Assembly (NCBI GenBank): GCA_902604715.1
Contig: CACLAD010000004.1
Coordinates: 1-64,000, forward strand
Direction: 5' to 3'
Origin: an uncultured Bacteroidota bacterium
Lineage (GTDB): Bacteria > Bacteroidota > Bacteroidia > Flavobacteriales > Flavobacteriaceae
DNA: 64,000 bases
The first letter of the stretch is position 1. Each line of letters starts with the position of its first letter. Below the pieces are notes generated by a model. It was not told where the DNA came from. It saw only the letters and a list, made by a program, of their open reading frames with translations, and did no database searches. Of the stretch, positions 7,966 through 46,008 are shown piece after piece. The position numbers and the translations under genes were made by a program.

Positions 7966-8304
7966 TTATTTTTTAAATGACTCTTTCTCCAGTTTAATAA
8001 TCTTTTTTACTTCCTCATTTGTAAAAACGTTCATCAATTTTTTGCGAGTTTCTGTGAATGCAGAGCGATAAACCTGTTTTTTTTCATCTTCAGTTAAATT
8101 TTTACCTCTGATTTTTGAAGCATTTGATGCATACTTATTGTAAAGAGTTTCTCTTAAAAAAGCAATATCTGAATCAGATATTTGCATATTTTCCGAAATT
8201 AGATTAACTGCATTATCTGCTCTATTAGCAGCAAATTTATTTTCTTGAGCTTGAGTAAAAGTGACAAAGAGTGTCATTATAAATACTAAAATTATTTTTT
8301 TCAT
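7966..8304 (-). CDS. Small secreted helical protein, Spy/CpxP-like in character
   Basis: Signal peptide then charged helical sequence with NLTEDEKK and FTNEEVKK; aligns ungapped to the linker module of the sulfatase-GH10 fusion. Confidence 0.75.
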   Translation of the reverse strand: MKKIILVFIMTLFVTFTQAQENKFAANRADNAVNLISENMQISDSDIAFLRETLYNKYASNASKIRGKNLTEDEKKQVYRSAFTETRKKLMNVFTNEEVKKIIKLEKESFKK

Positions 8305-9380: not shown

Positions 9381-9836
9381 ATGAAGAAAATTCTTTTTAC
9401 AATCGTTTTAGCAGGGCTTTTATTCAATTGTGAAACACCTGAAAAAAGTCAATACAATAAAAATGAAATAATCTTTATAGTGGATATGAATTCAAATGAG
9501 GGAAAATCAGAAGATGATATTGCTGAGTTTTCTAAGTATTACACAAATGCTATTGACATGAATGAGCCCAATTCTCTTGGATGGGGTTTTTACAATTCAG
9601 GTGATAAAGTAATTTTAATTGAAAGATACTTAGACGGAGGTGCAATGATGCAGCACAGTAAAAATATTTCTGAAGGAGGACCACTAGAAACCCATTTTGC
9701 TAAATTCATGGAACATTTTACGATTAACAAAATAGATGTTTATGGTACAGCATCTGATGAATTAAAAGAATTTGTAAAACCTTTCGGGTTACCTTTCTAT
9801 TTTCATCCCGATTTTACAAAATTTAGCAGAAATTAA
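9381..9836 (+). CDS. Putative lipoprotein, possibly ABM-like ferredoxin fold
   Basis: Lipobox-type GLLFNCE; LIERYLDGGAMMQHSKN...HFAKFMEHF resembles the ABM E.Y....A...H pattern; 1-nt overlap with FGE gene. Confidence 0.6.
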   Translation: MKKILFTIVLAGLLFNCETPEKSQYNKNEIIFIVDMNSNEGKSEDDIAEFSKYYTNAIDMNEPNSLGWGFYNSGDKVILIERYLDGGAMMQHSKNISEGGPLETHFAKFMEHFTINKIDVYGTASDELKEFVKPFGLPFYFHPDFTKFSRN

Positions 9837-10888
9837 TGCATTACTTATCAAGATTTTTTTTGTTAATTTTTACATTGATTTTTTCTTGTGATGATGTAAC
9901 TAAATCAGTTGAGAGCTCATTCATTAACCCTGAAGGAATGATTTGGGTTGAAGGTAAATCTTATACAAAAGGTGCAAAGAATAATGACGTTTTTGCAATG
10001 ATGAGGGAAAAACCATCCCACGAAGTTTACATTGATGGTTTTTTTATTGATGCAACTGAAGTTACAAATAATGAATTTCAAAAATTTGTAAATGAAACTG
10101 GTTATTTAACAATGGCTGAAAGAGAAATCGATTGGGATGAAGTGAAGAAAAGCCTACCGGCTGGGACACCAAAACCTCATGATTCGATTTTACAACCCGG
10201 TAGTTTAATATTTAATGATCGAATAAAAACCGTTGAGAATATGGAAAATTATTTTCAATGGTGGAGATGGCAAATAGGTGCAAGTTGGAAAGCGCCAAAA
10301 GGTCCCGGCTCCAGCATTGAGAATAAAGGTAGCTATCCTGTAGTTCATATCGCTTATGAGGATGCTAAAGCTTATTGTGAATGGGCTAATAGAAGACTTC
10401 CTACTGAGGCCGAATGGGAATCAGCAGCTCAAGGAAATTATAAAAATGCCGTTTTTCCTTGGGGAGATGATGTAAATTTATTGAACTCAAATGCAAATAT
10501 ATGGCAAGGTAATTTTCCTGTTAAAAATGAATCGATTGATGGATATGAAATGATTGCCCCTGTAAAATCTTTTCCTGCAAATAGCATTGGTATATTTGAT
10601 ATGGTTGGAAATGTTTGGGAAATTACAGATGATTTATTCAACGTCAATTACTATTCAGAAATAAGCACTGAAACTGAACTAAAAAATCTCAAAGGTGCTA
10701 GTAGTTGTTACAACCCAAGTAACCCATACGAAATACAATATGTAATGAAAGGTGGTTCGTTTTTATGTCATGATTCTTATTGTGCAAGCTATAGAATTTC
10801 TGCAAGGATGGGTGTGAGTGTTGGTTCTGGGTCTGACCATACCGGATTTAGAACAGTTGCAACACCTGAAATGCTTCTAAATAAATAA
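9836..10888 (+). CDS. Formylglycine-generating enzyme (sulfatase-modifying factor) family, secreted
   Basis: FFIDATEVTNNEFQKFV, RLPTEAEWESAAQG, GNVWEITDD and the two-Cys motif KGGSFLCHDSYCASYRISAR. Confidence 0.93.
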   Translation: MHYLSRFFLLIFTLIFSCDDVTKSVESSFINPEGMIWVEGKSYTKGAKNNDVFAMMREKPSHEVYIDGFFIDATEVTNNEFQKFVNETGYLTMAEREIDWDEVKKSLPAGTPKPHDSILQPGSLIFNDRIKTVENMENYFQWWRWQIGASWKAPKGPGSSIENKGSYPVVHIAYEDAKAYCEWANRRLPTEAEWESAAQGNYKNAVFPWGDDVNLLNSNANIWQGNFPVKNESIDGYEMIAPVKSFPANSIGIFDMVGNVWEITDDLFNVNYYSEISTETELKNLKGASSCYNPSNPYEIQYVMKGGSFLCHDSYCASYRISARMGVSVGSGSDHTGFRTVATPEMLLNK

Positions 10889-10958: not shown

Positions 10959-12443
10959 ATGTATTATCTGGGTCTAGATGTTGGCAGTTCTTCTGTAAAA
11001 GCAGCTTTAGTTGAAGCAAAATCAGGTAAGGGCATTCTAAGTGCACATGAACCAAAAAATGAAATGAGTATAAGCTCATTAAAAAATGACTGGGCAGAGC
11101 AAGGTCCAAATGTCTGGTGGAAGCACACATGTACTGCTATAAAAAGGGTTTGTAAAGAATCTAATATTGATCCTAAAAAAATTATTTCGATTGGGATTTC
11201 ATATCAAATGCACGGACTAGTCATCGTAGATAAAAATGGGGAACCACTTAGAGATTCTATTATTTGGTGTGATAGTAGAGCCGTTAATATTGGAAATGAT
11301 GCTTATGAAAAGTTGGGTAAGAATAAGTGTATGTCTCATCTGCTAAATTCTCCAGGAAACTTTACAGCATCAAAGTTAAAATGGGTAAAAGAAAATGAAC
11401 CTGAGGTCTATGAAAAAATATATAAATATATGTTACCTGGAGATTTTATCGCATATAAATTAACCGGTGAAATTAACACAACAAGAAATGGTTTATCAGA
11501 AGGAATAATTTGGGATTATAAAAACAATGAAACCGCAAATTGGTTGCTAGATTTCTACGGTATTGATCGAAATCTTACACCTGATTTAGTTGAAAACTTT
11601 ACGAATCAAGGGGTTACTAATTTGAAATCATCTGAAGAAACCGGATTAAATATTGGCATTCCAATTTCCTATAGAGCTGGTGATCAGCCAAATAATGCTC
11701 TTGCTTTAAATGTTTTTGATAATGGTGAGGTAGCAGCGTCGGGTGGAACTTCAGGGGTTATTTATTCAATTACAAACGATATTAATTCTAGGGAACCATC
11801 TAGAATAAATCATTTTGCTCATGTTAATTATAACGATAAGAATAATTCCATTGGAAAATTACTGTGTATTAACGGAGCAGGCATACAGTATAGATGGCTT
11901 AGAAATCATAGTATTGGCAAATCATATGAAAAAATGAATGAAGTTGCATCAAGTGTTCCAGTTGGGTCTGAAGGAATTTCAGTTATACCCTTTGGTAACG
12001 GAGCTGAAAGAATGTTAAATAATAAAAATATAGGAACACATATATGTAACATTAATTTGAATCAACATAGCCATGGTCATTTATACAGATCATCATTGGA
12101 GGGAATTGCTTTCTCATTTATGTACGGAATGGAAATTTTAAAAAATGACAATGCGTTAATTAATGTGGTTAGAGCTGGTAATGATAATTTATTTAGATCT
12201 AAAATTTTTGCAAATACTGTTGCTACCTTAATAGGTCATGAAATTGAAATCTATAATACAACTGGTGCATTTGGTGCTGCCAGAGCATCAGGAGTTATGA
12301 ATGATAATTTAGATTCATTTAGAAAAAAAATAACTAAAAACGATCACGTAATGACATTTTTACCACTTAAGAATACATCTGAGTATGTAGACGCCTATTC
12401 TAGATGGAAAGAAGATTTACAAGGAGTATTAAAAAACAAATAA
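10959..12443 (+). CDS. xylB: Xylulokinase
   Basis: FGGY kinase: [45 protein letters not shown]; adjacent to xylA. Confidence 0.93.
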
Positions 12444-12450
12444 TATAATT

Positions 12451-13764
12451 ATGAGTAAAGAATATTATAAAGGAATTGAAAAAATTAAATATGAAGGAGC
12501 TGAATCAGATAATCCTTTAGCATTCAAATATTATGATCCAAATAAAGTAGTTGCTGGAAAAACAATGAAAGAACATTTCAAATTTGCAATTGCTTATTGG
12601 CATTCATTCTGTGGAGTTGGATCTGATCCTTTTGGACCTGGAACATTGAACTTTGAATGGGATAAAAATCCTGATCCGATTCAAGCTGCAAAAGATAAAG
12701 CTGATGCTGCATTTGAATTTATTGGCAAAATGGGGTTTGATTACTTCTGTTTCCACGATTTTGATTTAGTAAGAGAAGCTACAACGTTTTCAGAGTCAGA
12801 AAAAAGACTTGAAACAATAGTTGAGTACATTAAAAATAAAAAAGAGGAAACTGGAATTAAGCTTCTGTGGGGAACAGCAAACTGTTTTTCAAATCCAAGA
12901 TATATGAATGGGGCAGCTACTAATCCAAATTTCAATGTGGTTGCTCATGCTGGAGCTCAGGTAAAATTAGCCTTAGATGCAACAATTGCTTTAGAAGGAG
13001 AGAATTATGTATTCTGGGGTGGAAGAGAAGGCTATATGTCTTTACTAAATACTGATATAGGAAGAGAACTTGATCACATGGCTAGATTCTTAACCATGGC
13101 AAAGGATTATGCCAGATCACAGGGGTTCAAAGGAACTTTTTTCATTGAACCAAAACCAATGGAGCCAATGAAACATCAATATGATTTTGACGCTGCAACT
13201 GCAGTTGGATTTCTTAAAGAATACGGACTTGATAAAGACTTTAAACTAAATATTGAAGTTAATCATGCGACCCTTGCACAGCATACTATGCAGCACGAGC
13301 TTGCTGTAGCTGCAAAAGCAGGGATGCTTGGAAGTATTGATGCGAATAGAGGTGACTACCAAAATGGTTGGGATACTGACCAATTTCCAAATAATGTTCT
13401 TGAGACAACTGAGGCAATGCTAGTATTTCTTCAAGCTGGTGGACTTCAGGGCGGAGGAATAAACTTTGATGCTAAAATCAGAAGAAATTCTACTGATTTG
13501 GAAGACATATTCTATGCGCACATTGGTGGAGCTGATACTTTCGCAAGAGCTTTAGTCACTGCTGATAAAATAATGACCTCATCCTCCTATTCTGATTTAA
13601 GAAAAAAGAGATATCAGAGTTTTGATAGTGGAAAAGGGAAAGATTTTGAGAACGGTAAATTAGAGTTAAAAGACTTATATGAAATAGCAAAAGATACTAA
13701 CGAAATAAGTCCTGAAAGTGGAAAACAAGAGCTCTTCGAAAATATTTTAAACCAGTATTTATAA
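12451..13764 (+). CDS. xylA: Xylose isomerase
   Basis: [52 protein letters not shown]. Confidence 0.98.
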
Positions 13765-13770
13765 CATATT

Positions 13771-15423
13771 TTGACAACAGTATTAGAGGGTTTAGATTGG
13801 ATTGTCTTGGGAATATATTTTCTAGCACTGATTTTTATTGCAGTGTGGGTTGTTTTACAAAAAAATAAAAATACAGAAGACTATTTTCTAGCTGGAAGAA
13901 ATGTTGGATGGTTCGTAATTGGTGCTTCAATTTTCGCCTCAAACATTGGGTCCGAACATGTTGTTGGACTAGCAGGAACAGGTTTTGAATCTGGAACACC
14001 CATGGCTCATTATGAGCTGCATGCATGGATAGTATTATTATTGGGTTGGTTGTTTTTACCATTTTACATTAGGAGTGGGGCTTTTACAATGCCTGAGTTT
14101 TTGGAGAAACGATTTGATTCAAAATCAAGATGGTTCTTATCACTTTTTTCTCTAGTTGCATATGTATTAACAAAAGTTTCTGTTACAATATATGCAGGCG
14201 GGATTGTTGTCTCTGAATTGCTGGGAATACCCTTTTGGTACGGAGCGATTGGGGTGGTGGTTTTTACAGGAATATATACTGTGATAGGAGGAATGAAAGC
14301 TGTAATTTATACTGAAACCCTGCAGGCTATTATACTAATTCTGGGTTCAATAATTATCACTTATCTGGGATTGCAAGAAGTTGGTGGGTGGGGTGAATTA
14401 AGAAACACCGTTATTGCTGCAAGCCCTGATCATTTTAACATGTGGCGCCCAATGTCAGATCCTGATTTTCCTTGGACTGGGTTGTTGTTTGGTGGTACAA
14501 TAGTTGGTGTTTGGTATTGGTGTACAGATCAATATATTGTTCAAAGAACATTGGCAGCAAACAATATTAAAATTGGAAGAAGAGGGGCAATATTTGGAGC
14601 TTATTTAAAATTACTTCCCATATTTATTTTTTTAATTCCAGGAATAATTGCCTTTGCATTATCGGTTCAAAACCCTGAGGTATTTTCTATTGAAAAAGCT
14701 GATAGGGCATTCCCAATGCTTGTTAAAACTTTACTTCCTGTTGGACTGAAAGGCTTGGTTGCTGGGGGTCTAATGGCAGCACTTATGAGCTCACTTGCAT
14801 CAGTATTTAATTCATGCTCAACTATATTTACAATTGACATTTATAAAAAGTTAAAGCCTAATGAATCAGAAAAAAAACTATTAATTATTGGTAAGCTCGC
14901 AACTACTGTAATTGTAATTCTTGGAATCATTTGGATTCCGATTATGGAAAAAATTGGCGGTGGTGTTATGTATCAATATCTCCAAAATGTTCAATCCTAT
15001 ATAGCTCCCCCAGTAGCAGCTGTTTTCATCTTAGGAATTGTTTGGAAAAGGGTAAATTCAAAAGCAGCCATAACAACCTTAATGGCTGGTTTAGTTTTAT
15101 TAATTATGAGGCTCAGTTCAGAAATTTATTTTCAGCCTGAAATATCTTCAAACACAATAGTTGATAGCTATATGTTTGTCTTTGCCACAATTAATTTTTC
15201 ACATATGGCAATACTTATGTTCATATTTTCAATTTTATTATGTGTGAGTGTTACACTTTCTACAACTGAACCCGAATATAGTAAAATTGTTGGCCTATCA
15301 TTTGGAACATTAACAAAAGAACAAAAGTTAGAAAACAAAAATAGTTATGAAGCAATAGATGTGATTTTATCAGTGACTCTGTTAATAATAGTCGTTGTTA
15401 TTTTAAACTATTTTACTGGCTAA
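13771..15423 (+). CDS. Sodium/solute symporter (SSS family), probable xylose transporter
   Basis: TEDYFLAGRNVGWFVIGASIFASNIGSEHVVGLAG; TTG start; downstream of xylA. Confidence 0.9.
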   Translation: MTTVLEGLDWIVLGIYFLALIFIAVWVVLQKNKNTEDYFLAGRNVGWFVIGASIFASNIGSEHVVGLAGTGFESGTPMAHYELHAWIVLLLGWLFLPFYIRSGAFTMPEFLEKRFDSKSRWFLSLFSLVAYVLTKVSVTIYAGGIVVSELLGIPFWYGAIGVVVFTGIYTVIGGMKAVIYTETLQAIILILGSIIITYLGLQEVGGWGELRNTVIAASPDHFNMWRPMSDPDFPWTGLLFGGTIVGVWYWCTDQYIVQRTLAANNIKIGRRGAIFGAYLKLLPIFIFLIPGIIAFALSVQNPEVFSIEKADRAFPMLVKTLLPVGLKGLVAGGLMAALMSSLASVFNSCSTIFTIDIYKKLKPNESEKKLLIIGKLATTVIVILGIIWIPIMEKIGGGVMYQYLQNVQSYIAPPVAAVFILGIVWKRVNSKAAITTLMAGLVLLIMRLSSEIYFQPEISSNTIVDSYMFVFATINFSHMAILMFIFSILLCVSVTLSTTEPEYSKIVGLSFGTLTKEQKLENKNSYEAIDVILSVTLLIIVVVILNYFTG

Positions 15424-15436
15424 TTAAAACTATATA

Positions 15437-16288
15437 TTGAATAAAACAATATACATATTATTTATAACCGTATTATTATATAATTGTAATAGTGAGGATA
15501 GTTTAAATAATACGGGTGACCTGGAATCTAATAATCTAATATCTACAACAATCACAATTGAACAGGAATTAGAAGATGGGAATACAATATTAAGGCCTGT
15601 AATAATTCAAGCTCCAAATGTAATTGACGCTAATAAAAACTATCCAGTTGTTTTCGCATATCATGGACGTGGAGGAAATAATAATAGCTGGATTAATATA
15701 CTCGGTAACTATACAAATTCAGGAGCATTTATAGGGGTTTATCCACAGGGTTATTTGGAATCGTGGAATCTGGGGCCCGAACCCTCTAATGCTGATGATG
15801 TAGAATTTACTAATTTAATTATTGCTGAATTAGAAAGTTATAATAACTTAAATCTTGAAAAAATATATGCGATTGGTATATCAAATGGGTCAGGAATTGT
15901 AAATAAATTAGCTATTGAAACTAGTCATTTTAAAGCTATTGCTCCTATTGTTTCTCAACTAATTGAGAGTCTTCCTCTGCTTGAATCCACTAATCCAGTT
16001 TCTGTGTTTCAAGTAAATGGTGCGGCAGACACATCTATTCCGATTAACGGTGGGCTACAATTTGGACATGTGTTTTTAGATGCATTTGAAAGTGCTCAAC
16101 TTTGGGCGTCTCAATTTAATTGCTCTGAAAATCCAAATACAATAATGTTAGGACAAGATACTTTATACATCTTTGATTCTTGTGATAATGGAAAGGAAAT
16201 AAGGTATCTCAGAATTGAAAATGGTGGTCATAATTTAAATCTAAATATATTATTTCTAGATGTATGGGATTTTTTCCAAAGATTCTAA
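15437..16288 (+). CDS. Alpha/beta hydrolase esterase, CE1/LpqC-like lipoprotein
   Basis: VVFAYHGRGGNNNSW, GVYPQGY, nucleophile elbow GISNG, catalytic His in GGHNL; TTG start. Confidence 0.8.
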   Translation: MNKTIYILFITVLLYNCNSEDSLNNTGDLESNNLISTTITIEQELEDGNTILRPVIIQAPNVIDANKNYPVVFAYHGRGGNNNSWINILGNYTNSGAFIGVYPQGYLESWNLGPEPSNADDVEFTNLIIAELESYNNLNLEKIYAIGISNGSGIVNKLAIETSHFKAIAPIVSQLIESLPLLESTNPVSVFQVNGAADTSIPINGGLQFGHVFLDAFESAQLWASQFNCSENPNTIMLGQDTLYIFDSCDNGKEIRYLRIENGGHNLNLNILFLDVWDFFQRF

Positions 16289-17131
16289 TTATTTATTTAT
16301 AGTTGGGGGGCCTGATAAATACCCATTAGATTTTAGAAAAATATCTGTCTGCAAAAGTGTATCTACAAAATCATCACCCCTATTAAAAAAAGCATGTTCT
16401 GCACCCTCATACAAAATAATATTACATCTACTGCCAACAGCATCCATTCTTTTTTTATAATTTTCAATTAATTCAACTGGTATTACTTTATCCTCAGTAC
16501 CGGTTAATATAATTGTTGGGGGAGCCCCTTTGCTTATATTATCGTATGGTGAAGCATCTGAGGGGTTATCAATCCATATCCATTTTCTTCCATAATGTAT
16601 GACTGGATTATAAAGAATTAATAAGTTAGGTTTAGAGCTAATAGTCAGATCTTCATCACCATTATCAAATAACTCAATATTTCCCGCAACTGCTGCCAAG
16701 TGTCCTCCTGCTGATCCCCCGGCAGCAGCAATTTTACTTGGATCAATTGAAAGTAATCTTGCATTCGACCTGATAAACCTTATTGCAGATTTTGCATCCT
16801 CCATTGCTTGAATCGGGGATGTGCCGTGCTTATTTCTTATCCTATACTCAACAGAAATAGTTACCATCCCCCTAGAAGCAAAATATCTTGACTGTCTTTG
16901 AAATTGTTCTGGGTTTCCAGAATTCCAACCGCCTCCATGAAAAAAAACTATACAACTATATTTTTTTTTGATATCAAATTCTGAAGGTTTATATACAAAT
17001 AAATTGAGCTCTCCTTCTTTAGTATTCTTATAAAGAATCTTTTCAGGTTTTATTTGTTGAATTTTATTTTGAGAATAATTTAATTGGAGTGAACCAAGTA
17101 TTAATAATGTACTTATGGTAAACCTTAACAT
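16289..17131 (-). CDS. Secreted alpha/beta hydrolase (BD-FAE/carboxylesterase-like)
   Basis: VFFHGGGWNSG and nucleophile elbow GGSAGG, His in GAEHAFF. Confidence 0.85.
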   Translation of the reverse strand: MLRFTISTLLILGSLQLNYSQNKIQQIKPEKILYKNTKEGELNLFVYKPSEFDIKKKYSCIVFFHGGGWNSGNPEQFQRQSRYFASRGMVTISVEYRIRNKHGTSPIQAMEDAKSAIRFIRSNARLLSIDPSKIAAAGGSAGGHLAAVAGNIELFDNGDEDLTISSKPNLLILYNPVIHYGRKWIWIDNPSDASPYDNISKGAPPTIILTGTEDKVIPVELIENYKKRMDAVGSRCNIILYEGAEHAFFNRGDDFVDTLLQTDIFLKSNGYLSGPPTINK

Positions 17132-17133
17132 TA

Positions 17134-20085
17134 TTAATTAAAATTTATAAAGCTTTTTACAACTTCATATGTTTTTGTTGGAATCGTATCATTATCATAC
17201 ATAGACATATAATGTCCTTTTAAACCTCGCGAGCTTTTTCTCTCTCCCATACTCCAAAAATTTACTGTAACTAATCCGTTTTTTGATTTTTCTTGAGATA
17301 AGTTCATTAGCTTTTGATATACCTCAGCTTGCTTTTTGACAGAATTTAAACTGTTATTTTCACCATCATTATAATAATCTAACTCGGTTATATGAAATTC
17401 AAGTTTATTTGAATGAGCCCAGTCAATTAGATCAGATAATTTTTTTAACTCCTCGTCTAAATTTTCAACAAATTGTTTAAGTCCTTGGTTATTCATTAAA
17501 TGACCTTGCCAACCTATACCATCAACTCTATGACCTTTTGATTTTAAATACAAAACTGTTTCCTTTAACTTATCCCACATTGGAATCTGCATACCACCAT
17601 TCTGATTATAAACAAGCTTTTTATTTGGTGCATATTTATCTGCGAGTTCAAATGCTTTAATAATATACAATGGATATCCGTTTTCGTCAAGACCAATATC
17701 TAACCATGGGTTTTCCCATTTGCTATTTCCTGGCTTTGAGCCAAGCCATTTTCCCGAAGCTAAAATGGTTTCGTTTACAACATCAATCCATTTTATATTT
17801 TCAAAATCTTTATATCTGCTTAGAAGTCTGAATAAAAATTCTTCAAGGCTGGCTTGAAGTTCATCAGCTGTTCTGGCATCATCTTTTATCCATTTTGAAC
17901 ACTGTGGTCCAATAGGACTATGAAGTCTAAAAAGTAAGTTATTATTTTTTGAAAACTCAACAAAGTTGTCAATTTGGTCCCATTTCCAACTACCATTTGT
18001 TGGATTAATATTTGCCTGTTTTGCAGCATTCATTGCTGTCAAATATTTAAAGTCTTTTAAAAATAAATTTGCATAATTACTGCTAAGTTCTCTATGTATT
18101 AATGTTGATCCGACCAAAAAGCTTTCATTCTGAAGAGATGAAATTAGACTGACATTATTGTTCTCTTTTGGGGTTAACAATTCTTCAGATTCATATTTTA
18201 AGATTGAATCAACTTGTTTCTTTGTAAATTTTTTAAGTAATATTTCTTTTATAAGACTAAATGTTTCTTTATAAATTGTTTCTTTCTGATTATCTGTCAA
18301 GTTGTTATCAGCAGTCAAATTATTATTTCTTGCGTACTTACTATAAAAAACGTCAATGATAAATTCTTTTTGATTTTTATTCATCAGCATTTCTCCAGCG
18401 ATATAATTTCCGATAACCTTTGACCTTTTATCAGCCCTCGAGTTTGATTTGTCATTAGTCATGATATTTTCTGGAATATTATTTGATTCGACTACAATCT
18501 CCATTTCTGAAAGCTGAGAGTTAAAAAAACCGTTGGCTAACTTGACAAACTGAGTTTTTATCCTTTGGTAATTTTCTAAACCAGCTTTATTTTCGGTTTC
18601 ATTTGGATCAATCTTATAGTCATAAAGCTCTTCAGCATAAATATCATCATTTGAAATTGGCTCAGTACTTTTTTTATTTTTTACCCAAACTGTATATCTA
18701 TATCTTTCTGATCTAAAACTGTAGCCCATAGTTTCTCCAGAGTTCTTAGAACGTCTTGGATATTGACTAACTGCAAAAATCTTAGATGTGGTTTTTTCAC
18801 CCTCAATTTGTGGCCTCAAGCTTATACCATCTAGATTTTGAGGCATATCCAGATTTGTCATATCACAGAGAGTGGGAAAAATATCAACAAATTCAGTTGG
18901 TGAGCTTATTTTATACATCTCATTAACCCTTGGGTCTTTAATCAATAGTGGTGAGCGTGTTGACTGCTCAAAATTTGTATGTTTGGTCCACTGGCTGTGA
19001 TCTCCAAGATGAAAGCCATGATCACCCCAAATAACAATAATTGTATTTTTATCTAAGCCTTTTTCTTTAAGCTTATCAACAAGCTTTCCTATTTGCGCAT
19101 CAATATAACTTGAGGCAGCGTAATATCCATGAATCAATTTTCTTTGAAAATCATCTGCTAAAATCAAAAGATTTTCCTCATTGTGTGGATAGTCTGTTTC
19201 AGGTGTATGATAGGAGTTGATTTCCCACCCAGCTTTATAAGCAATATCAACAGGGTATTTGGACTTTATTCTAAATTCCGCCAGCTTAATCTCATTTGGG
19301 TCATATAAATCCCAATATTTTGTAGGTGCAACAAATGGCATATGAGGTCGAACGAATCCCACAGCAAGAAAAAATGGTTGTGAAGTATCCATATTATCGA
19401 TTAAATCAAGGCTACGATTAGCAATTGCACCATCTATATATGCACCGTCAGGAACATCAGCACTTTCATATGGTGGCTTAAAAATGTCAGTAGTATATTT
19501 ATTTAAACCTCTCTCACTAATACCCTTTGAAATTCCTTCTTGCCTTAGTTGAGATACTTTTGCTCTAATTTCATCACTTTGGTAGAATCCATTTGCAGGA
19601 AAACTGTATCCATCAGAAAATGTTAGGTTTCTCTGAGATATAAACGGAACAGACCAAGACGGCTTGTCTTTAAAATTGTCAACACTTCGATTATCAAAAA
19701 TCTTACCAATACCTATTGTCTGATAGCCATTTTGCTTGAAATACTGAGGAAGAGTTAAAATATCAGGATTCATATCTCTCATTCTTGTTTTTAAATCCCA
19801 AACTCTTGTCTTGTCAGGTCTTAGGCCGGTCATTAGACTGGCCCTTGAGGGACCACATACTGCTTGCTGAGTGTGATTATTTAAAAAAACAGTTGATGAT
19901 TTTGATAATTCGTCAATATTTGGTGTGACAGCGAATTCATCACCAAAACTCCCAATACTTGGCTTCAAATCATCCACGGCAATAAACAAAACATTCATTT
20001 TTTCCTTAGCCTGAGAAAATACAGAAATATATGAGAAAAGTAATACGCAAAATACAATTGTTTTAAGACTAGTTACTCTATTCAT
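17134..20085 (-). CDS. Sulfatase - helical module - GH10 fusion protein, secreted
   Basis: N-terminal sulfatase NVLFIAVDDLKPSIGSFGD, CGPSRASLMTG; helical segment ~18181..18438; C-terminal GH10 WIDVVNETI and FHITELDYY; one uninterrupted frame; likely start at MNRVTSL rather than 20118. Confidence 0.92.
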   Translation of the reverse strand: MNRVTSLKTIVFCVLLFSYISVFSQAKEKMNVLFIAVDDLKPSIGSFGDEFAVTPNIDELSKSSTVFLNNHTQQAVCGPSRASLMTGLRPDKTRVWDLKTRMRDMNPDILTLPQYFKQNGYQTIGIGKIFDNRSVDNFKDKPSWSVPFISQRNLTFSDGYSFPANGFYQSDEIRAKVSQLRQEGISKGISERGLNKYTTDIFKPPYESADVPDGAYIDGAIANRSLDLIDNMDTSQPFFLAVGFVRPHMPFVAPTKYWDLYDPNEIKLAEFRIKSKYPVDIAYKAGWEINSYHTPETDYPHNEENLLILADDFQRKLIHGYYAASSYIDAQIGKLVDKLKEKGLDKNTIIVIWGDHGFHLGDHSQWTKHTNFEQSTRSPLLIKDPRVNEMYKISSPTEFVDIFPTLCDMTNLDMPQNLDGISLRPQIEGEKTTSKIFAVSQYPRRSKNSGETMGYSFRSERYRYTVWVKNKKSTEPISNDDIYAEELYDYKIDPNETENKAGLENYQRIKTQFVKLANGFFNSQLSEMEIVVESNNIPENIMTNDKSNSRADKRSKVIGNYIAGEMLMNKNQKEFIIDVFYSKYARNNNLTADNNLTDNQKETIYKETFSLIKEILLKKFTKKQVDSILKYESEELLTPKENNNVSLISSLQNESFLVGSTLIHRELSSNYANLFLKDFKYLTAMNAAKQANINPTNGSWKWDQIDNFVEFSKNNNLLFRLHSPIGPQCSKWIKDDARTADELQASLEEFLFRLLSRYKDFENIKWIDVVNETILASGKWLGSKPGNSKWENPWLDIGLDENGYPLYIIKAFELADKYAPNKKLVYNQNGGMQIPMWDKLKETVLYLKSKGHRVDGIGWQGHLMNNQGLKQFVENLDEELKKLSDLIDWAHSNKLEFHITELDYYNDGENNSLNSVKKQAEVYQKLMNLSQEKSKNGLVTVNFWSMGERKSSRGLKGHYMSMYDNDTIPTKTYEVVKSFINFN

Positions 20086-20129
20086 AATCAGATAGGTTTT
20101 AGTTTGTTTAAATATCATTAAAATTTAAT

Positions 20130-20163: not shown

Positions 20164-21375
20164 ATGAATAAAATAAACCTAATAATTATAATCTGTTTGC
20201 AATTTGTTTTTAGAATTGAATCGCAAAACTATAACCCTGATTTGTTTTTAAAAGATTATTCGGTGGATATGATAATCACAACACAAGTAAAAGCGGAGGG
20301 AAATAAGGCTATTCTTAGAGGAACAGAAGCCAAGAAAAATAGAAATTTTGTTTTAGAAAATTACAATGGCATTCAGCCCTCAATTTACCCAGCATGGGAT
20401 GAAGGATTCTGGCCAAAGAAAAAACCAGAGTCATTAAAAGACTTTAGTTTTGATACAAAATTTTTTGACGAATTAGTAAACTGGGGGATAGAAAATGACT
20501 TTCATATAATGCATCACTGTTTAATCTTTCCAAATAAATATTTTCCAAAATGGTTCTCAAAAACTAACTACACAGATAATGAACTAGAATATATTCTTGA
20601 AAAATTCATTGTAAAGGTTTTAAACTCAAATGATAATAAAAATAAAGTTGATGTGTTTAATGTAATCAATGAGATTTTTGCCATGGGTAAATCAGGGAAA
20701 TACAGAGTTTCAGGAAACGAAAAAGAGGATTGTAAATGGATGGATATGGGTTTTGAAAAAGATAATTCAGGACTTGTTGGCGAACAGAATATCAATAGTG
20801 AGCACCCCCTTTTTGTTAGAAGAGTTTTTGAAATTGCGTCTGAACTAACGGATGCCAAACTTGAAATAAGAGATTTCAATATTGCTTTTGGTGGAAAAAA
20901 AGCTGATGGTTTATATCAACTTGTAAAACATTTAAAAAACTCAGGGGTAAGAATTGATGCTGTGGGTTTTCAATGTCATCTGAATGTAGGGATAAATTAC
21001 AACTATGAAAACCTTAGAAAAAATATTAAAAGGTTTATAGAGCTGGGAGTTGAAGTTTATATTACAGAGTTAGATGTGGGATTAAATCTTTGGGGGCAAG
21101 GAGGTAATCACAAAAAGGTTTCGGATGTAATTAAGACCCAAAGTGATTGGAATAATTTTTTTGAGGAACAAAACAAAATATATTATAATCTGGTTAAAAC
21201 CGCGAAAGAATCAGGTGTTAAACTTATCAGTGATTGGGGTTTCCGAGACGATATTCCATATGGTGGCTGGAGAAAAGATCAAAAGGCATGGATGGTTAAT
21301 AAGAACTACTCGAGAAAGGGAGCGTACTATTCAGTTCTAAAAGCGCTTTATGATGCAGATCAAAATAAAAAATAA
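20164..21375 (+). CDS. Divergent GH10-like glycoside hydrolase, secreted
   Basis: VFNVINEIFAMG and VYITELDVG acid/base and nucleophile regions, LISDWGFRDD C-terminal strand; signal peptide. Confidence 0.85.
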   Translation: MNKINLIIIICLQFVFRIESQNYNPDLFLKDYSVDMIITTQVKAEGNKAILRGTEAKKNRNFVLENYNGIQPSIYPAWDEGFWPKKKPESLKDFSFDTKFFDELVNWGIENDFHIMHHCLIFPNKYFPKWFSKTNYTDNELEYILEKFIVKVLNSNDNKNKVDVFNVINEIFAMGKSGKYRVSGNEKEDCKWMDMGFEKDNSGLVGEQNINSEHPLFVRRVFEIASELTDAKLEIRDFNIAFGGKKADGLYQLVKHLKNSGVRIDAVGFQCHLNVGINYNYENLRKNIKRFIELGVEVYITELDVGLNLWGQGGNHKKVSDVIKTQSDWNNFFEEQNKIYYNLVKTAKESGVKLISDWGFRDDIPYGGWRKDQKAWMVNKNYSRKGAYYSVLKALYDADQNKK

Positions 21376-23424: not shown

Positions 23425-24474
23425 TTAAAGAATTGAAAAATCATTATAGGGTTCAAGTGTTTTGATTAACCCATCCTCGTCGTATTGAATTTCAGCAATT
23501 TTAACAGATCTCAAATGCGTAACACCTTTTGAAAGTGAAGAATCATGATAAAATAAATACCATTTACCCTTGAATTCACAAATTGAATGGTGAGATGTCC
23601 AGCCGACAACTGGGTTTAAAATTTTTCCTTTGTAAGAAAATGGGCCATAAGGATTATCACCAATTGCATAGCAAATAAAATGTGTGTCTCCCGTTGAATA
23701 TGAAAAATAGTATTTGCCGTTATACTTATGCACCCATGCAGCTTCAAAAAAACGTCTTTCGTTATCACCAGCTAATAGCAATTTACCTTTTTCATCAAGT
23801 ATTTGTACCTCCCTTGGTTTTTCAGCAAATTCTAATAAATCATCTGACATTTTTGCTACAAAAGGTAAAAGAGCTGGTTCATCATCATTTGGAAGAAAAG
23901 CTATTGGGCTTGTAGAATTATTGGGGTTAAAAACCCCGTTTCTCCATCTTTGTAATTGGCCACCCCAGATACCTCCAAAGTACATATAATATTCTCCATT
24001 ATCGTCTTTATAAACTGCAGGGTCTATTGAAAAACTTCCTTCAATTGGTTTATCCATTGGAGTAAAAGGGCCCTCTGGGTTTTCACCAACTGCAACGCCA
24101 ATTCTAAAAACACCTTTATAATCTTTTGCTGGAAAAAACAGATAATATTTTCCATCTTTCTCATTTGCGTCTGGAGCCCACATTTGTTTTTCAGCCCATT
24201 TCACATTATCTACATGTAATGCAATTCCATGATCTTTGACAGTACTGTCTATATCTTCCATTGAAAATACATGATAGTCTTCCATAGCAAAATGACTTCC
24301 TAAATCATCAAATGCATCACCAGCGTCTATATCGTGAGAAGGATATATGTAAATCTTTCCGTCAAAGACATGTGCAGATGGATCGGCAGTATAGAGATGA
24401 GTAATTATGTGTGGTGATATTGATCTTTTATTTAAATCTTCAAAATCAATATGGTCGATACTATTCTCTGGCAT
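23425..24474 (-). CDS. GH43 glycoside hydrolase (beta-xylosidase/arabinofuranosidase type)
   Basis: YTADPSAHVFDGKIYIYPSHD, MWAPDANEKDGKYYLFFPAKD, SIDPAVYKDDNGEYYMYFGG; no clear signal peptide. Confidence 0.92.
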   Translation of the reverse strand: MPENSIDHIDFEDLNKRSISPHIITHLYTADPSAHVFDGKIYIYPSHDIDAGDAFDDLGSHFAMEDYHVFSMEDIDSTVKDHGIALHVDNVKWAEKQMWAPDANEKDGKYYLFFPAKDYKGVFRIGVAVGENPEGPFTPMDKPIEGSFSIDPAVYKDDNGEYYMYFGGIWGGQLQRWRNGVFNPNNSTSPIAFLPNDDEPALLPFVAKMSDDLLEFAEKPREVQILDEKGKLLLAGDNERRFFEAAWVHKYNGKYYFSYSTGDTHFICYAIGDNPYGPFSYKGKILNPVVGWTSHHSICEFKGKWYLFYHDSSLSKGVTHLRSVKIAEIQYDEDGLIKTLEPYNDFSIL

Positions 24475-24482
24475 TGTGTTCT

Positions 24483-25916
24483 CTAACTTTTTCTTTTTTT
24501 CAATAAATCTTTTTCAATCTTCTCCTCCATCTTTTTATCAATGACATAAAAGAATAGCAAAGCAGCGGCAACTAAAAAAGGAATTGAGGGAAAGATACTA
24601 ACCAACATTTTAGTGCCTAAAATTGCAGATTCAGTTTGCTCACCTACGCTATTTGGAACATAACCATAGCTACCTAATACAGACGCTACTAATGCGCCCC
24701 CAATACTTAAGCCAAGCTTTAGGCCTACCATCATTGCTGAAAAAATTATTGCCGTAGCTCTTCTGTTGTTTTTCCATTCTGAATAATCTGCGACATCTGC
24801 AATCATTGCCCAAAGCAATGGTATTGTAATCCCGTAAAAAAACCCATGAAATATTTGGGCACCAAAAATTAAATTAATGGAATCAGGTGAGAGAATATAA
24901 AAAACTAAAATGAATAAAGTTGATATAAATAAAAACACCCCAAAAACATTTCTTTTCCCATATTTGTCAGCTAACATTTTTGAGAGGCTTATTCCAGCAA
25001 TCATAAATATAATACCTCCAGCATTAAAGAGTCCAAATCCAGCAGATACAGGATCATTGCCAAAAAAATTAATTCCAATATTTGATAAGAAATCCAGTAT
25101 TGGTGAAATGAAATTACTCAGGGAATTTTCTGAAACGTAGTTTTCAAAATAATAAACATAAGCGCCTCCCTTCATTGAAAGTGTTATAAATAATAGAGTA
25201 GTTATAGTCAACATAATTACCCACGGAATATTTTTAATTAGATCTTTAATATCTTCTAGTAAACTTGATGATTGCTCTTGGGTTGGAACAATTCTTTCCT
25301 TAGTGGTTATAAAAGTAATTAGTAATAGAATCGTTCCGATAACTGCCAGCCAGGTCATGGTTATTTCAATCCCGAGCGCTTTGTCTCCATCACCAGCATA
25401 CATAATAATTGGTAGCATGAATACCTGAACAAAAAATTGCGCAAACATGACTGCAACAAATCTATATGCTGAAATACTATTTCTCTCTTTCATATCACCA
25501 GTTATAACTCCGCTAAGTGCTGAGTAAGGTAAATTGCTTCCTGCATATAATAACAATAATAAAGTATAGGTAACTACCGCATAAATTACTTTGCCACTGT
25601 ATGAAAAGTCAGGTGTGGTAAAAGCTAATACTGAAGTAACCCCAAGTGGTAATGCAGTCCATAATATCCAGGGTCTAAACTTTCCCCATTTGCTATTTGT
25701 TCTATCAGCTAATGCACCAATAATTGGATTGAATCCAATAGCAGCAGCTGTACCAACAAAAAAAATGATAGCAGTTGCATCATCCGCGTTTAAGCCATAA
25801 ATATCAGTATAGAAATATGCTAAATATGTGATTAAAGTTTGGAATACAAGATTAGCTGATAAGTCTCCTAGACTGTATCCAATCTTTTCTTTAATCGAAA
25901 GGGGTTGTGTAGTCAT
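24483..25916 (-). CDS. GPH-family (glycoside-pentoside-hexuronide) cation symporter
   Basis: KIGYSLGDLSANLVFQTL, ADRTNSKWGKFRPWIL, ADVADYSEWKNNRRATAIIFSAM. Confidence 0.92.
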   Translation of the reverse strand: MTTQPLSIKEKIGYSLGDLSANLVFQTLITYLAYFYTDIYGLNADDATAIIFFVGTAAAIGFNPIIGALADRTNSKWGKFRPWILWTALPLGVTSVLAFTTPDFSYSGKVIYAVVTYTLLLLLYAGSNLPYSALSGVITGDMKERNSISAYRFVAVMFAQFFVQVFMLPIIMYAGDGDKALGIEITMTWLAVIGTILLLITFITTKERIVPTQEQSSSLLEDIKDLIKNIPWVIMLTITTLLFITLSMKGGAYVYYFENYVSENSLSNFISPILDFLSNIGINFFGNDPVSAGFGLFNAGGIIFMIAGISLSKMLADKYGKRNVFGVFLFISTLFILVFYILSPDSINLIFGAQIFHGFFYGITIPLLWAMIADVADYSEWKNNRRATAIIFSAMMVGLKLGLSIGGALVASVLGSYGYVPNSVGEQTESAILGTKMLVSIFPSIPFLVAAALLFFYVIDKKMEEKIEKDLLKKRKS

Positions 25917-25919
25917 ATA

Positions 25920-27032
25920 TTATTTGATTTTTGAAAAGTCAATATTTAGTAATTCAAATAAAGCAGGCTTCTTGTTATATTCTCTATCGAATAATAATGG
26001 GTAGTCTGTTCTGCCTCTAATTGGATTTTCATTTCTCCACGTATACTTATCGGTAGTACCCCAAAAAGTTACCCTGCTAATTTTATCATGATGCTTTACA
26101 AATAACTCAAAAATCTCTTTATATCTCCTGGTTAATTTTTTTTGAATATTTTTGGGTATCCCAGATTGATATGGATCCCATTTTTTATCACCTTCGAATT
26201 TTTTAAATTCTTCTCTTGCTATACCTGCTAACTCATAGGGGTTTGGAATTACCGTTATATCAAGCTCGGTTATCATTACATCAACACCTGTAGCTGCTAA
26301 GTCAACAATTGTTTCTTCAATTTCCTTAATGCTAGGGAAATGAAGGTCCCAATGAGCCTGAATACCAACTGCATCTATTCTTATTCCTTTTTCCTTTAAA
26401 GAGTTAATTATCCTAATAGCACCTTCTCTTTTCTTTGGCTTATACAGATTGTAATCATTGTATGCAAGCTCAACATTCGGGTCAGTATCATTTGCATATT
26501 GAAATACTTTTTCAATATAGTCATCACCCATCATTTCAAGAAATACGGTCTCTCTAAGCGACCCATCATCATTTAATGCTTCGTTGACTACATCCCACAT
26601 ATCGACCTTGCCTTTAAATCTTGTGACCATTTGAAATATGTGATTTTTTAAATGCAGGTGGAATTTAGCTTTGTCATTGATTTCTGAAACATACTCAGGA
26701 ACTTGATTGTGCCAAACCAAAGTATGACCTAATAAATACATATCATTTTCTTTAGCAAAATCTGTGATTTTCTGAGCATTTGAAAATGTAAACTTTGAAT
26801 ACTCTGGATGTGAGTGCATCCACTTCATTGAGTTTTCAGGAGTTACAGAATTAAAATCTTCAGAAACAATTTTTAAAATTTTTTCGTCTTTATCAATAAT
26901 TTGATAATCCTCCTGATTAATAGTTGCTCCAATTAAAAAGTAATCTTCAAATTTTTCTTTTAAAGTCTCTTTTTCTTGAGAACAAGCAAGAAATGGTATT
27001 GAGATAAATAATGAAATTAATATTCTTTTCAT
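25920..27032 (-). CDS. Canonical GH10 endo-1,4-beta-xylanase, lipoprotein
   Basis: FLACSQ lipobox, ENSMKWMHSHPE, GHTLVWHNQVPEYV, VDMWDVVNEALNDDG, VMITELDI. Confidence 0.95.
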   Translation of the reverse strand: MKRILISLFISIPFLACSQEKETLKEKFEDYFLIGATINQEDYQIIDKDEKILKIVSEDFNSVTPENSMKWMHSHPEYSKFTFSNAQKITDFAKENDMYLLGHTLVWHNQVPEYVSEINDKAKFHLHLKNHIFQMVTRFKGKVDMWDVVNEALNDDGSLRETVFLEMMGDDYIEKVFQYANDTDPNVELAYNDYNLYKPKKREGAIRIINSLKEKGIRIDAVGIQAHWDLHFPSIKEIEETIVDLAATGVDVMITELDITVIPNPYELAGIAREEFKKFEGDKKWDPYQSGIPKNIQKKLTRRYKEIFELFVKHHDKISRVTFWGTTDKYTWRNENPIRGRTDYPLLFDREYNKKPALFELLNIDFSKIK

Positions 27033-27103: not shown

Positions 27104-30100
27104 TTATCTAACAACTAGTTTAGATACTTTACTTTGTCCATCAACTGTAACTTTCAGCATGTAGAAACCACTATTGAATGAACTCACATCAAGTGTGTTT
27201 CCATTAATAACAGTATCCATTACTTTTCTACCAGTCACAGTAAATACTTGGATTTCTTTAGATCCTTGTACCGGAGTTACAATAGTAACATAGTTACCAT
27301 CAACTGGGTTAGGATAAATCATCATATCAAGTATTTCATTATCACTTGTAGATAGTGTACCATCTATACAGATGTCATCGATGTTCCAATCAGCACCATA
27401 AGTACTATTAAGCTGGAATCCGATTACAACACTTTCAGCACTTGGTATACTAAATGTTCTCTGTACAAATACATCTTCAGCATCAGTACCGATTACATCA
27501 TTTAATAATACCCATGTAGCAGTTGTTGGATCACCTGCATAATCAGTTGCGTACCATACGTTGTGTGCAGTAGCATCAGCTGACCAGTTTAGATATTCAA
27601 AGTAGGATACAGTTGCTGTTCCTTCTGATAAACCAGATGTATCATATGATGGGGAAATTGCCCAGTCATCATATGCAGCATCTGATGGTAGGTAACCGTG
27701 ACCTAATGCAGCAGCTGAATCTCCATTTGCTGGAGTATCAATTTGCCAATCAGAAGTTAAACCACCTAGATCAATAAATGTCCATCCTTCTGTTCCATCC
27801 TCAAAGTCTTCACACAATGGGAATGTTACAGGGGCAGCACATTCTACAAATGGATATGGACACCCTGAATCACATGTTGTTTCTGAACCGTCAGTACAGT
27901 TAACTTCACCATACGTCCACGCTCCCTCAACTTTATATGCCCAAGAATCCATGTATTCCCATGCTTCACCAGTACCATCAACATCAACATCACCGAATAC
28001 TTCGATAACACCTCCGCCAAAGTAAAGCTCGATAGCATCATCACCATTTTGTGAAATATCACTACTTGCTTGTAGTACTTGGTCAAAGCCAGTCATTCCG
28101 TAAGCTTCCATTGCTTCTAGAGATCTAGCAACTAATATATGTTGACCAGCAGTTGCTGAACCTTCTGGGAAGACATATTCTTCACCGTCAGTACCACCAC
28201 CGTTGTTAGCAACACCAATTCCATAGTTAGACAGGTCAGCAATATCTTCAGTAACAAGTACATGTATTGCTTTACCGTCAGAACCAGCACTTGGAACTGT
28301 AAAGTCAATGATACCTTGTAGTACCATCATACCATCTTCTGAAGCTGCACAACCTACACCATCACCAGAGCAATCTCCGAAGCAGTGTAATAAGTATGTG
28401 TCACCATCAAATTCAGGTAGCATTCTATCATTATAGTTGTTTACGTCAGCACATTCTTGACCGGTTAAGTCTTCTTTAGCACCCCAGTCACCACCGTCAC
28501 CAGGTCCGTTTAAGAATATATAATTCGCTCCAACTTGATCTGTGTTCACCTCAAGTGTAACTTCATATATTCCGTCTCCGTCGTCATCAGACATTGCGTG
28601 ACCTTGTGCGTCTCCAAATGCACCACCACCTAAATACATACCACTATCACCAACGGTAATATTAGCCGTATCAACAGCAAATGTTAAATTGTAAACTTGA
28701 CCAGGTGTTTCACCAGGACATAAGTTCCAGAATACTGTATCTAGTGTCATGTCAGCACCAGCGACTGTAAATGCTCTGTTGGTATATGTACCATCAGTAA
28801 CCGTACAACCTTCAACAGCTCCGATTGATCCAAATTCTTCCTGAACACTCCATCCGTTAATAGTGAACTTATATTCATAGTCACCATCTTCTAATGCAAC
28901 TGTTACAGTCCAAATTCCGTCTCCATCATCGTCGTTCATTGGAGTACAGTCTCCACACCATCCAACAAAGTTACCGTTTAAGTAAACAATATCACTGTCA
29001 GCTAATCCTCCAGGATAGTTACTCATGTTTACATTGAATGTAACATCATAAGTAGTTGATGGAGCAGGACATTCTCCTGTACCATTACCTGAACATTCTC
29101 CAAAGCAGTGTAATAATGTATAATCTTCTTCTCCTACTGGATCTAAGATTCTGTCATCATAGTTGGCTGGATCAGCACAATCTTGACCATTTAAATTTTC
29201 TTTAGTTCCCCAGTCAGATGAACCGTTAGGGCTATTAAAGAATATGTAGTTTCCTGTAGTACCAGGTGCTAAAGCAATAGTAGTTACCCAAACACCATCA
29301 CCATCATCATCTGATAATGCGTAAGCGTCAGAACCACCAAGAACTCCACCACCAACATAGATGCCATTTGCACCTACTTCAATGTTCTCAGTATTTACAC
29401 TGAATGTAACATTTGTTAAAGCAGCAGCACAAGTGACAGCAAAGTCAAGTGTATCACCACTTACAGAACTGTCAGAATCAATTTCTACAAAGATAGTACC
29501 ATCAGTAGAAGTAATTGCCTGACCAGTATGATCACCAGAAGCATTATACAATACATTGCCAGCACCATCTGTGATGATAAGGAAATCATAATTATTTTCT
29601 GTTGAACCAGTAACCGTTACAGTTACTTCTCCACCAGGGTTTGAAGCACTAAATAATGTACCTGATTCATTGTTACCGTAAGTATATGAATAAGTTGTAT
29701 CACAAGCTATCGCACCACCTGTAGTTGTAAAAGCAACTGTTGCTTCAACAGCAGGGTCTAATGCTTGATGATTTGCATCAACTAACGAGAAAACAATTGT
29801 GTGATCACCATTAGGTAAATCACTCAATGTAAGGTCGTCAGATGAGTATACCATAACTTCTGCACCACCATTCAATGAATAGTGAATGTGTCCGTCTACA
29901 CCATCTCCTTGACCAACAGTAAAGTTTTCTAATGTAAATGAGAAAGTTGCAGAAGCTGTACCTGTAGTTACACCTACACTCATTGAAGGATCACTTGAAC
30001 ATACAATACTTGCAGTAGCTTGAGCACCTGAACTAACTGTGTAAGAAACACCGTTTACGCTAATAGATGCACCATTCCAGCCATCGCCGTAAGAATCGTT

Positions 30101-34368: not shown

Positions 34369-35808
34369 TTAATTTGATTGATTTTGAAACGGATCCTTAT
34401 TTACATAATTTCTCATCTCTCCTAATTTAATACTATATTTTTTAACAAGCTCTTTATTCTCAGGGAGTTTTGAAATATCAATGTTTTGCTTTTTATCGTT
34501 TTGCATATCATAAAGCATATTACCTAAATATTTTTCTGCCACTACAAATTCAGTATAAGAATAGTTTTTGTCTATTACTGCTTCGCCTTGCTTATACCTG
34601 GTGTAAATTTCATCTTTCAAAATAGTTTCCGGATTTTTAAGAACAGGTGTTAAACTTTTTCCTTGTATGTAATCTGGAGGCGAGATTCCTACTAGCTCAC
34701 AAAGAGTTGGATATATATCAACCAGCTCTGTGAAAGAATCTGAATTGTCTTTCGCACTATATTTTGGAGAAGATATAATTAATGGAATTTGGACTGCTTC
34801 GTAAAAAGTACTATGCTTACACCAGAAACCATGTTCGCCTAAAAAATATCCGTGATCACTCCACAAAATTATTGTGGTATTTTCTCTTAAACCAGTTTCA
34901 TCTAATCCTTCAATTAATTTTCCGATCATTGCATCCATGTATGAAACACTCGCATAATAACCATGAATCAAATCCTTTGATAATTCATCGTCAAGTAGGC
35001 CTTCTGCGGGAATCTCAAGATAATTTTTTCTAAGTTCTGCTGAATTATGTTGTGCTTCAATTGATATATCTGGTGAGTTTAGAGGTTGATATGTATTATC
35101 AGCTAGCTTAATCTTTTCGTGATCATACATATCCCAATACTTTTTAGGCTGTATGAAAGGGAGATGTGGCGAAACATATCCAATTGCCATAAAAAAAGGT
35201 TTTCCGTTGTTACTAAATTCCTTAAACTTTTCAATCGCCTTGAGTGTAATTTTTCCATCATTATATGCAAAGTCGTCAACGTCAGGATATTCAATAATTG
35301 GATTTTTCTTACCATACTCACCTGTTTCAGCATTATCTCGTAACCTTATAGATTCTGGATCCTGAAAATCAGCTTGAGCGGCACCGTTATCTTTTTCTGT
35401 CCAGTGTTCTGCAAAATCGTCATTGTGATGGTAAATCTTCCCGTATGAAATAGTTTCATATCCATTTTCTTTAAAAATCTGATTAAGCGGAATTGCATCT
35501 GGGGCGTCAACTGAAGCTCGAGTTGAAAAATCATTAAATCTCTTCTCGCTTGGTCTTATGCCAGTCATAATACTTGCTCTACTTGCACCACATACTGCAA
35601 TATTTGTAAAAGCATTATTAAATTGTACACCCTCAGAAGCTAGCTTGTCCATGTAAGGGGTGATCATTTTCTCGATTTCATAATTATAAGAATTCATAGT
35701 TGGCCTTAAATCATCAATTGAAATAAAAAGTATGTTATGTTTTTTTTCAACATGATTGTTGCATGATATTAGAAAAACTCCTAAAATGATTACAAATATT
35801 TTTTTCAT
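34369..35808 (-). CDS. Sulfatase (iduronate-2-sulfatase-like), lipoprotein
   Basis: HNILFISIDDLRPTMNSY, CGASRASIMTG, LWSDHGYFLGEHGFWCKHS; lipobox-type FLISCNN. Confidence 0.93.
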   Translation of the reverse strand: MKKIFVIILGVFLISCNNHVEKKHNILFISIDDLRPTMNSYNYEIEKMITPYMDKLASEGVQFNNAFTNIAVCGASRASIMTGIRPSEKRFNDFSTRASVDAPDAIPLNQIFKENGYETISYGKIYHHNDDFAEHWTEKDNGAAQADFQDPESIRLRDNAETGEYGKKNPIIEYPDVDDFAYNDGKITLKAIEKFKEFSNNGKPFFMAIGYVSPHLPFIQPKKYWDMYDHEKIKLADNTYQPLNSPDISIEAQHNSAELRKNYLEIPAEGLLDDELSKDLIHGYYASVSYMDAMIGKLIEGLDETGLRENTTIILWSDHGYFLGEHGFWCKHSTFYEAVQIPLIISSPKYSAKDNSDSFTELVDIYPTLCELVGISPPDYIQGKSLTPVLKNPETILKDEIYTRYKQGEAVIDKNYSYTEFVVAEKYLGNMLYDMQNDKKQNIDISKLPENKELVKKYSIKLGEMRNYVNKDPFQNQSN

Positions 35809-35815
35809 TATAAAT

Positions 35816-37471: not shown

Positions 37472-37472
37472 A

Positions 37473-42613: not shown

Positions 42614-42639
42614 AATTTAAGAGTTTAGTTTTTTATTTT

Positions 42640-45789: not shown

Positions 45790-46008
45790 GATTAGTTTGT
45801 TTCTGTTATTAAATTTATAGAGTAAAGATAACACTAAAGGATATTTTAGAAAAGATATTTACAAATAATACCGTTAATTTTTTATGTTTTATTATCTAAA
45901 TAGACCAAATACTGAGATATTAATAATTTTTTAATGTATAATTTATCAATTTAGCATGCATCATTACTTAAAAACACTTCGCATGCACAGTATTTTTTTT
46001 ATATTGTA

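Follow-up and report, generated by a model that had tools for sequence, protein, structure and literature searches.

A sulfatase-GH10 fusion protein with an intervening helical module in a putative sulfated-xylan utilisation locus of an uncultured Flavobacteriaceae bacterium

The fusion gene and its surrounding locus

The window analysed here, a stretch of 64,000 nucleotides from an uncultured marine member of the Flavobacteriaceae, carries a gene that encodes a sulfatase, a helical module and a GH10 domain in one frame. This frame is open for 994 codons between 17134 and 20118 on the minus strand, with zero internal stops. The start at 20085 is probably the true one rather than that at 20118, since the relatives L046, L048 and L050 begin at the equivalent position (983 aa). 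The gene and its parts are as follows.

17134-20085, minus strand: sulfatase-helical-GH10 fusion gene, 983 aa from the 20085 start (longest frame, to 20118, 994 aa)
20011-20085, minus strand: Sec signal peptide without a lipobox, by sequence inspection
18544-19995, minus strand: formylglycine sulfatase domain (Sulfatase and SGSH_C in Pfam; nearest structure 6HHM, P18_S1_7)
19843-19857, minus strand: CGPSR maturation motif, residues 88-92, by sequence and alignment
18178-18441, minus strand: helical module of four helices, residues 560-647, by AlphaFold2 and homologues
18124-18168, minus strand: fusion junction, a remnant of a GH10 signal peptide (NNNVSLISSLQNESF), 33 bp shorter than in the split relative L049
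17155-18129, minus strand: GH10 domain with catalytic E783 (17770-17772) and E912 (17383-17385)

Both halves of the protein are recognised by Pfam above cut-off, the sulfatase at residues 42-422 (E 7.8e-45) with its C-terminal subdomain SGSH_C at residues 372-525, and GH10 at residues 664-988 (E 3.9e-40; score 138.5 bits, cut-off 22.1). The CGPSR motif conforms to the C/S-x-P-S-R signature of formylglycine (type I, S1) sulfatases, and the metal and catalytic residues of that class, an early Asp pair, a late Asp-His and Lys/His, are all found; D49, D50, D366, H367, K139, K379 and H259 are kept across aligned relatives, unreadable bases aside. In the GH10 domain the acid/base Glu follows Asn (NE, residues 782-783, in DVVNE) and the nucleophile Glu lies in ITELD (TE, residues 911-912). 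Both are present in every aligned fused relative with readable bases (L050 has N's at E783), and the catalytic Glu pair, the adjacent Asn and the active-site His, Gln and Trp are kept in fused and split relatives. An AlphaFold2 model built from 33 sequences (mean pLDDT 82) contains three folded units, the sulfatase, the helices at 560-647 and a GH10 barrel of alternating strands and helices as in a TIM barrel, connected by flexible joints at residues 539-553 and 648-658; at a pTM of 0.54 it does not fix the relative placement of the domains. The initial annotation had described a single frame coding for a complete sulfatase with CGPSR, a helical module of about 86 aa (88 aa in the model) and a GH10-type domain in which the two catalytic Glu regions are present, and had asked of structure prediction whether either active site was incompetent. 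This description stands, and both active sites look competent. The annotation had called the polypeptide secreted; the most likely location of the protein is the periplasm.

The GH10 domain departs from canonical GH10 beta-1,4-xylanases on the glycone side. The glycone-subsite motifs TxEN and GHTLVWHxQ are absent and TAMN and LHSPIGPQ stand in their place, so that the E of TxEN is M and the W of LVWH is G; these are the E43-type and W84-type residues (numbered after Cex). The change lies within a conserved HxPISPQ motif. Because the two canonical motifs are missing, we assign the domain by sequence to a divergent GH10 subfamily; the losses would possibly fit a glycone side altered for decorated substrates. 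Sequence searches mark this subfamily as rare: of 395 genomes sampled across the phylum 4 gave matches, and of 395 sampled across the class 2 did so, the window's own genome counted in each. When the window is compared with its nearest relatives, dN/dS is about 0.05 for the sulfatase, 0.2 for the helical module and 0.1 for GH10, which indicates purifying selection on each of the three parts in this lineage.

The fusion gene lies in a polysaccharide utilisation locus (PUL) with the following features.

7966-8304, minus strand: stand-alone secreted helical protein, 112 aa, a homologue of the fusion's module
9836-10888, plus strand: formylglycine-generating enzyme (FGE) with both catalytic Cys (GGSFLCHDSYC), aligned to 6S07
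10959-15423, plus strand: xylulokinase, xylose isomerase and SSS-family symporter
15437-17131: two esterase/alpha-beta-hydrolase-like genes adjoining the fusion (16289-17131, minus strand, BD-FAE-like)
20164-21375, plus strand: second divergent GH10, 403 aa
21421-23412, plus strand: GH5 with T9SS tail
23425-27032, minus strand: GH43, MFS sugar transporter and canonical GH10
31859-34366, minus strand: PelN/PL9-like N-terminus, CBM22/CBM4_9-type module and T9SS tail
34369-38873, minus strand: three more sulfatases
38870-41026, minus strand: GH30-type xylanase-like enzyme with T9SS tail
41090-45834, minus strand: SusD and SusC pair

In total the locus holds three GH10, one each of GH30, GH43 and GH5, four sulfatases and SusC/D. 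The FGE has the LCHxSYC motif expected of the maturase and is the sole strong FGE match in the genome. The GH10 at 20164-21375, transcribed divergently from the fusion, has a glycone motif altered in the same way (HHCLIFPNKYFPKW). Two large proteins were also noted on the minus strand. One, beside the xylan PUL (27104-31261), has 1385 aa, AMPK1_CBM/CBM48-like segments and a T9SS tail; the other (59216-63913), of 1565 aa, combines PPDK_N ATP-binding, CARDB, lamin tail and SprB repeat segments with a T9SS tail, an unusual combination in an exported protein.

In North Sea Bacteroidetes a "sulfatase domain-containing GH10" was reported to be characteristic of PULs putatively directed at sulfated xylan (Krüger et al. 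2019, PMC6794258). Two gene patterns were reported there, one with a sulfatase-GH10 fusion, GH3 and two sulfatases, and a second with GH30, three sulfatases, PL9 with CBM22, GH10 and GH43 (PMC6794258). The window's PUL contains the gene set of the second pattern, PL9 being taken from a partial PelN match and GH43 assigned at family level. Of the first it has the sulfatase-GH10 fusion and further sulfatases; no GH3 was found within the window, and four lie elsewhere in the genome. Judged by gene content, the PUL thus corresponds to the second pattern's gene set joined to the first pattern's sulfatase-GH10.

Distribution and history of the fusion

A scan of GTDB genomes yielded 80 loci; once the window and another two loci were added, there were 92 GH10 entries, 40 of them fused to a sulfatase and 52 not. 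Fusions occur in 39 database loci besides the window, which excludes a chance pairing. A fused gene of 983-994 aa, its parts 84-98% identical to those of the window, is present in four further records from this lineage (L046, L047, L048 and L050). One of these is a metagenome-assembled genome (MED649); the other three bear AG- isolate names, which we take to denote single-cell genomes. More distant fusions are found in Polaribacter, Formosa, Lutibacter, further Flavobacteriaceae and Reichenbachiella, and the fused form is spread over diverse Flavobacteriales, mostly with links of 5-35 aa. Lutibacter agarilyticus is a cultured example. A search of plasmid and phage collections returned zero records covering 80% of the fusion protein. 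In Reichenbachiella faecimaris (L115, 3982-7467) a CBM4/9 module takes the place held elsewhere by the helical module, in a sulfatase-CBM4/9-GH10 protein of 1161 aa that carries a GH101_dom-5-like domain at its C-terminus. A stand-alone GH10 relative at about 9.9-11.1 kb of L035 (G071) is broken by an in-frame TAA and is a possible pseudogene.

The initial annotation had proposed that two separate genes in related genomes would expose the fusion as an assembly chimera. Two-gene relatives do exist (L049, L052, L057, L059 and L060), and a chimera or a missed stop codon could be argued from them. The same junction is nevertheless present in all four of the independent same-lineage records. An assembly chimera is accordingly rejected, and we give an artefact of either kind practically no credence.

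The relative L049 (AG-461-G08) illustrates the split state. Its contig begins within the sulfatase gene, of which just the final part is visible. There the sulfatase-helical frame stops at a TAG, and three bases later begins a separate GH10 gene, 92% identical to the GH10 of the window and with its own signal peptide (MNFFYLRNSLILFFSFAISFAQ). Aligned to L049, the fused genes are without the stop codon and without 33 bp coding for the core of the signal peptide, and the remainder is the segment seen at the window's junction. Since stand-alone GH10 relatives generally start with a signal peptide, we take split genes to be the ancestral state at this fusion.

At least nine switches of state are required to explain how fusions are distributed over the GH10 tree, and starred branches force six of these; a tree that unites all fused GH10 sequences in one clade is rejected (p-AU 1.5e-4, on a quick tree with an unsure root). 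Fused and split states are likewise scattered on the sulfatase tree. These phylogenies indicate that the fusion arose or broke up several times among related seawater bacteria. In two same-genus genomes (L140 and L141) the PUL is syntenic and its sulfatase-helical gene codes for 634 aa; between this gene and the esterase no GH10 was found. Because many relatives have a separate GH10 gene, and these two genomes have no GH10 fused or following, covalent coupling of sulfatase and GH10 is, on the evidence of gene order, optional. A further fusion occurs on a plasmid of Persicobacter sp. JZB09 (CP012861.1; L143, 4004-6757), beside SusC/D. This 917-aa protein likewise joins a sulfatase, 47% identical, to a GH10-family domain, but its GH10 half comes from a distant lineage, so that the fusion looks independent.

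The helical module

The module was initially annotated as a helical piece between the catalytic domains. It is present there, and it appears to be a separate, mobile, PUL-linked domain, more than a linker. Folded alone, it is predicted as a confident four-helix unit (pLDDT 90, pTM 0.82). No match above cut-off was obtained in Pfam or NCBIfam and none of significance among PDB sequences (best E 0.27) or in a fold search (best E 0.51); the stand-alone protein at 7966-8304 is also unmatched in Pfam, NCBIfam and PDB. Homologues form the end of sulfatases without a fused GH10 (L052, L057, L059, L060, L140 and L141) and also occur as secreted proteins of 112-122 aa in related PULs. The family is found in 9 of 300 same-family genomes and, where the neighbourhoods of such genomes were inspected, the gene lies in or beside PULs like that of the window. 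We rejected a mere spacer as a full description of this element, given its folding alone and its occurrence as separate secreted genes. The model and these homologues instead indicate an independently folding, mobile, PUL-linked secreted family.

A tentative extension, to which we assign rather low confidence, is that the family is docking or chaperone-like and specific to sulfated-xylan PULs, a small secreted four-helix protein that would bind the sulfatase and GH10 enzymes, organise them in the periplasm and, in some lineages, have become part of the sulfatase itself. The module was not found described in the literature searched. The family, its position inside a sulfatase-GH10 enzyme and the recurrent fusion and fission are apparently new.

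Proposed substrate and function

The structure nearest to the sulfatase half is P18_S1_7 of Formosa agariphila (PDB 6HHM), its top match by sequence (E 1.9e-75) and by fold (E 1.5e-35, TMt 0.87), at 32% identity; iduronate-2-sulfatase follows among the closest matches on both measures. P18_S1_7 has no fused GH10 and is described as a xylose-2-sulfate sulfatase acting on ulvan fragments (PMC9096561). The mode of S1_7 enzymes is disputed, endo in one review (PMC9096561) and exo in another (PMC8360166), and S1_7-type sulfatases act on further sugars too (PMC9096561), so that the family does not fix the position of the sulfate. Sulfatase and glycosidase are also combined in P36 of Formosa agariphila, whose S1_25 sulfatase and GH78 rhamnosidase domains were shown to act consecutively (PMC8511951). 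P36 thus provides a characterised case in which a sulfatase works in sequence with the glycosidase fused to it, although it differs in sulfatase subfamily, GH family and substrate (ulvan). The sulfatase-GH10 proteins of Krüger et al. (PMC6794258) resemble the window's more closely, with both catalytic domains in one polypeptide, the same kind of locus and related taxa (Polaribacter, Formosa); they are predictions only, have a GH3 neighbour and come without mention of a helical module, whereas here the module lies between the domains and the window has no GH3. The initial remark that a characterised enzyme of exactly this order was not known holds for biochemistry, as no such characterisation of a sulfatase-GH10 protein was found in the literature searched, but the pairing itself was already known as a prediction.

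We propose, with a probability of roughly two in three, that the fusion acts in the periplasm as a bifunctional enzyme within a locus for the use of sulfated xylan, first desulfating xylosyl residues and then cleaving the backbone so exposed. The polymer would be cut at the surface by enzymes bearing T9SS tails (GH30, GH5 and PL9-like/CBM22), and SusC/D would bring in sulfated xylo-oligosaccharides, a sugar flow drawn by analogy with characterised PULs. The PUL-encoded FGE would convert Cys88 and so activate the sulfatase domain, which would strip sulfate from xylosyl residues, probably at 2-O; the tethered GH10 may then cut the backbone bond formerly blocked by sulfate. As sulfate removal would unblock this bond, the sulfatase domain would make the substrate of the GH10 domain. 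The helical module, folded and connected through flexible joints, may serve for spacing or docking and is kin to the stand-alone secreted protein of the PUL. The fusion most likely acts in the periplasm on imported oligosaccharides, and GH5, GH30 and the PL9-like protein on the surface, because the fusion has a Sec signal without a lipobox and lacks a T9SS tail (no Por_Secre_tail match in a profile search of the protein), while those three carry such tails. In favour of this bifunctional enzyme are the domains, the active-site residues, the 6HHM match, the FGE, the xylose gene set, the agreement of the gene content with the published PUL patterns, purifying selection and the consecutive action shown for P36. 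Against it count the lost glycone residues, with which the GH10 may be no ordinary beta-1,4-xylanase, the same-genus relatives that live without the GH10 half, the breadth of sugars taken by S1_7-type enzymes and the pTM of 0.54 for domain placement. The initial suggestion of covalent coupling suited to sulfated xylan is accordingly upheld in part: the xylose and sulfated-xylan gene content and the kinship of the sulfatase speak for the substrate, but the tether is dispensable among relatives.

Alternative functions can be weighed against the same evidence. The two activities could be uncoupled, adjacent genes drifting near-neutrally between one frame and two, with a tether of no catalytic benefit; the many state changes (at least six forced, a single fused clade rejected), the two-gene state of the close relative L049 and the lack of a GH10 at this position in L140 and L141 would all be expected. 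We nevertheless regard such drift as rather unlikely, given that the fusion is kept in 40 of 92 GH10 entries across diverse Flavobacteriales with links mostly of 5-35 aa, that both catalytic domains are under purifying selection in the window's lineage, and that in Persicobacter the same kind of sulfatase is joined to another GH10-family domain. That the GH10 domain has been repurposed, for binding or for cleavage of a backbone other than xylan, could explain the loss of W84-type and E43-type residues inside the conserved HxPISPQ motif; retention of the catalytic Glu pair, adjacent Asn and active-site His, Gln and Trp in fused and split forms, together with a dN/dS of about 0.1, makes this improbable. 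Ulvan or another xylose-2-sulfate heteropolymer would be the substrate if the action of the nearest solved sulfatase on Xyl2S in ulvan (PMC9096561) were a guide, and a sulfatase-GH78 fusion is indeed known from an ulvan PUL (PMC8511951). Among the scanned PUL proteins, however, there is no match to rhamnosidase (GH78), GH105 or ulvan lyase, the glycoside hydrolases present all belong to families containing xylanases or xylosidases, and the sugar kinase and isomerase serve xylose, so that we consider such a substrate very improbable.

Sulfated xylans have been put forward as one of the major glycans in algal blooms, and characterised enzymes of the predicted pathway for their use were not found in the literature searched. 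In the fusion a probable xylose sulfatase and a glycosidase are combined in one protein, and the helical family is a new marker of sulfated-xylan loci and perhaps also a new functional component. The fused, split, GH10-free and CBM-containing relatives form a natural control set, with which the substrate assignment and the benefit of the tether are directly testable.
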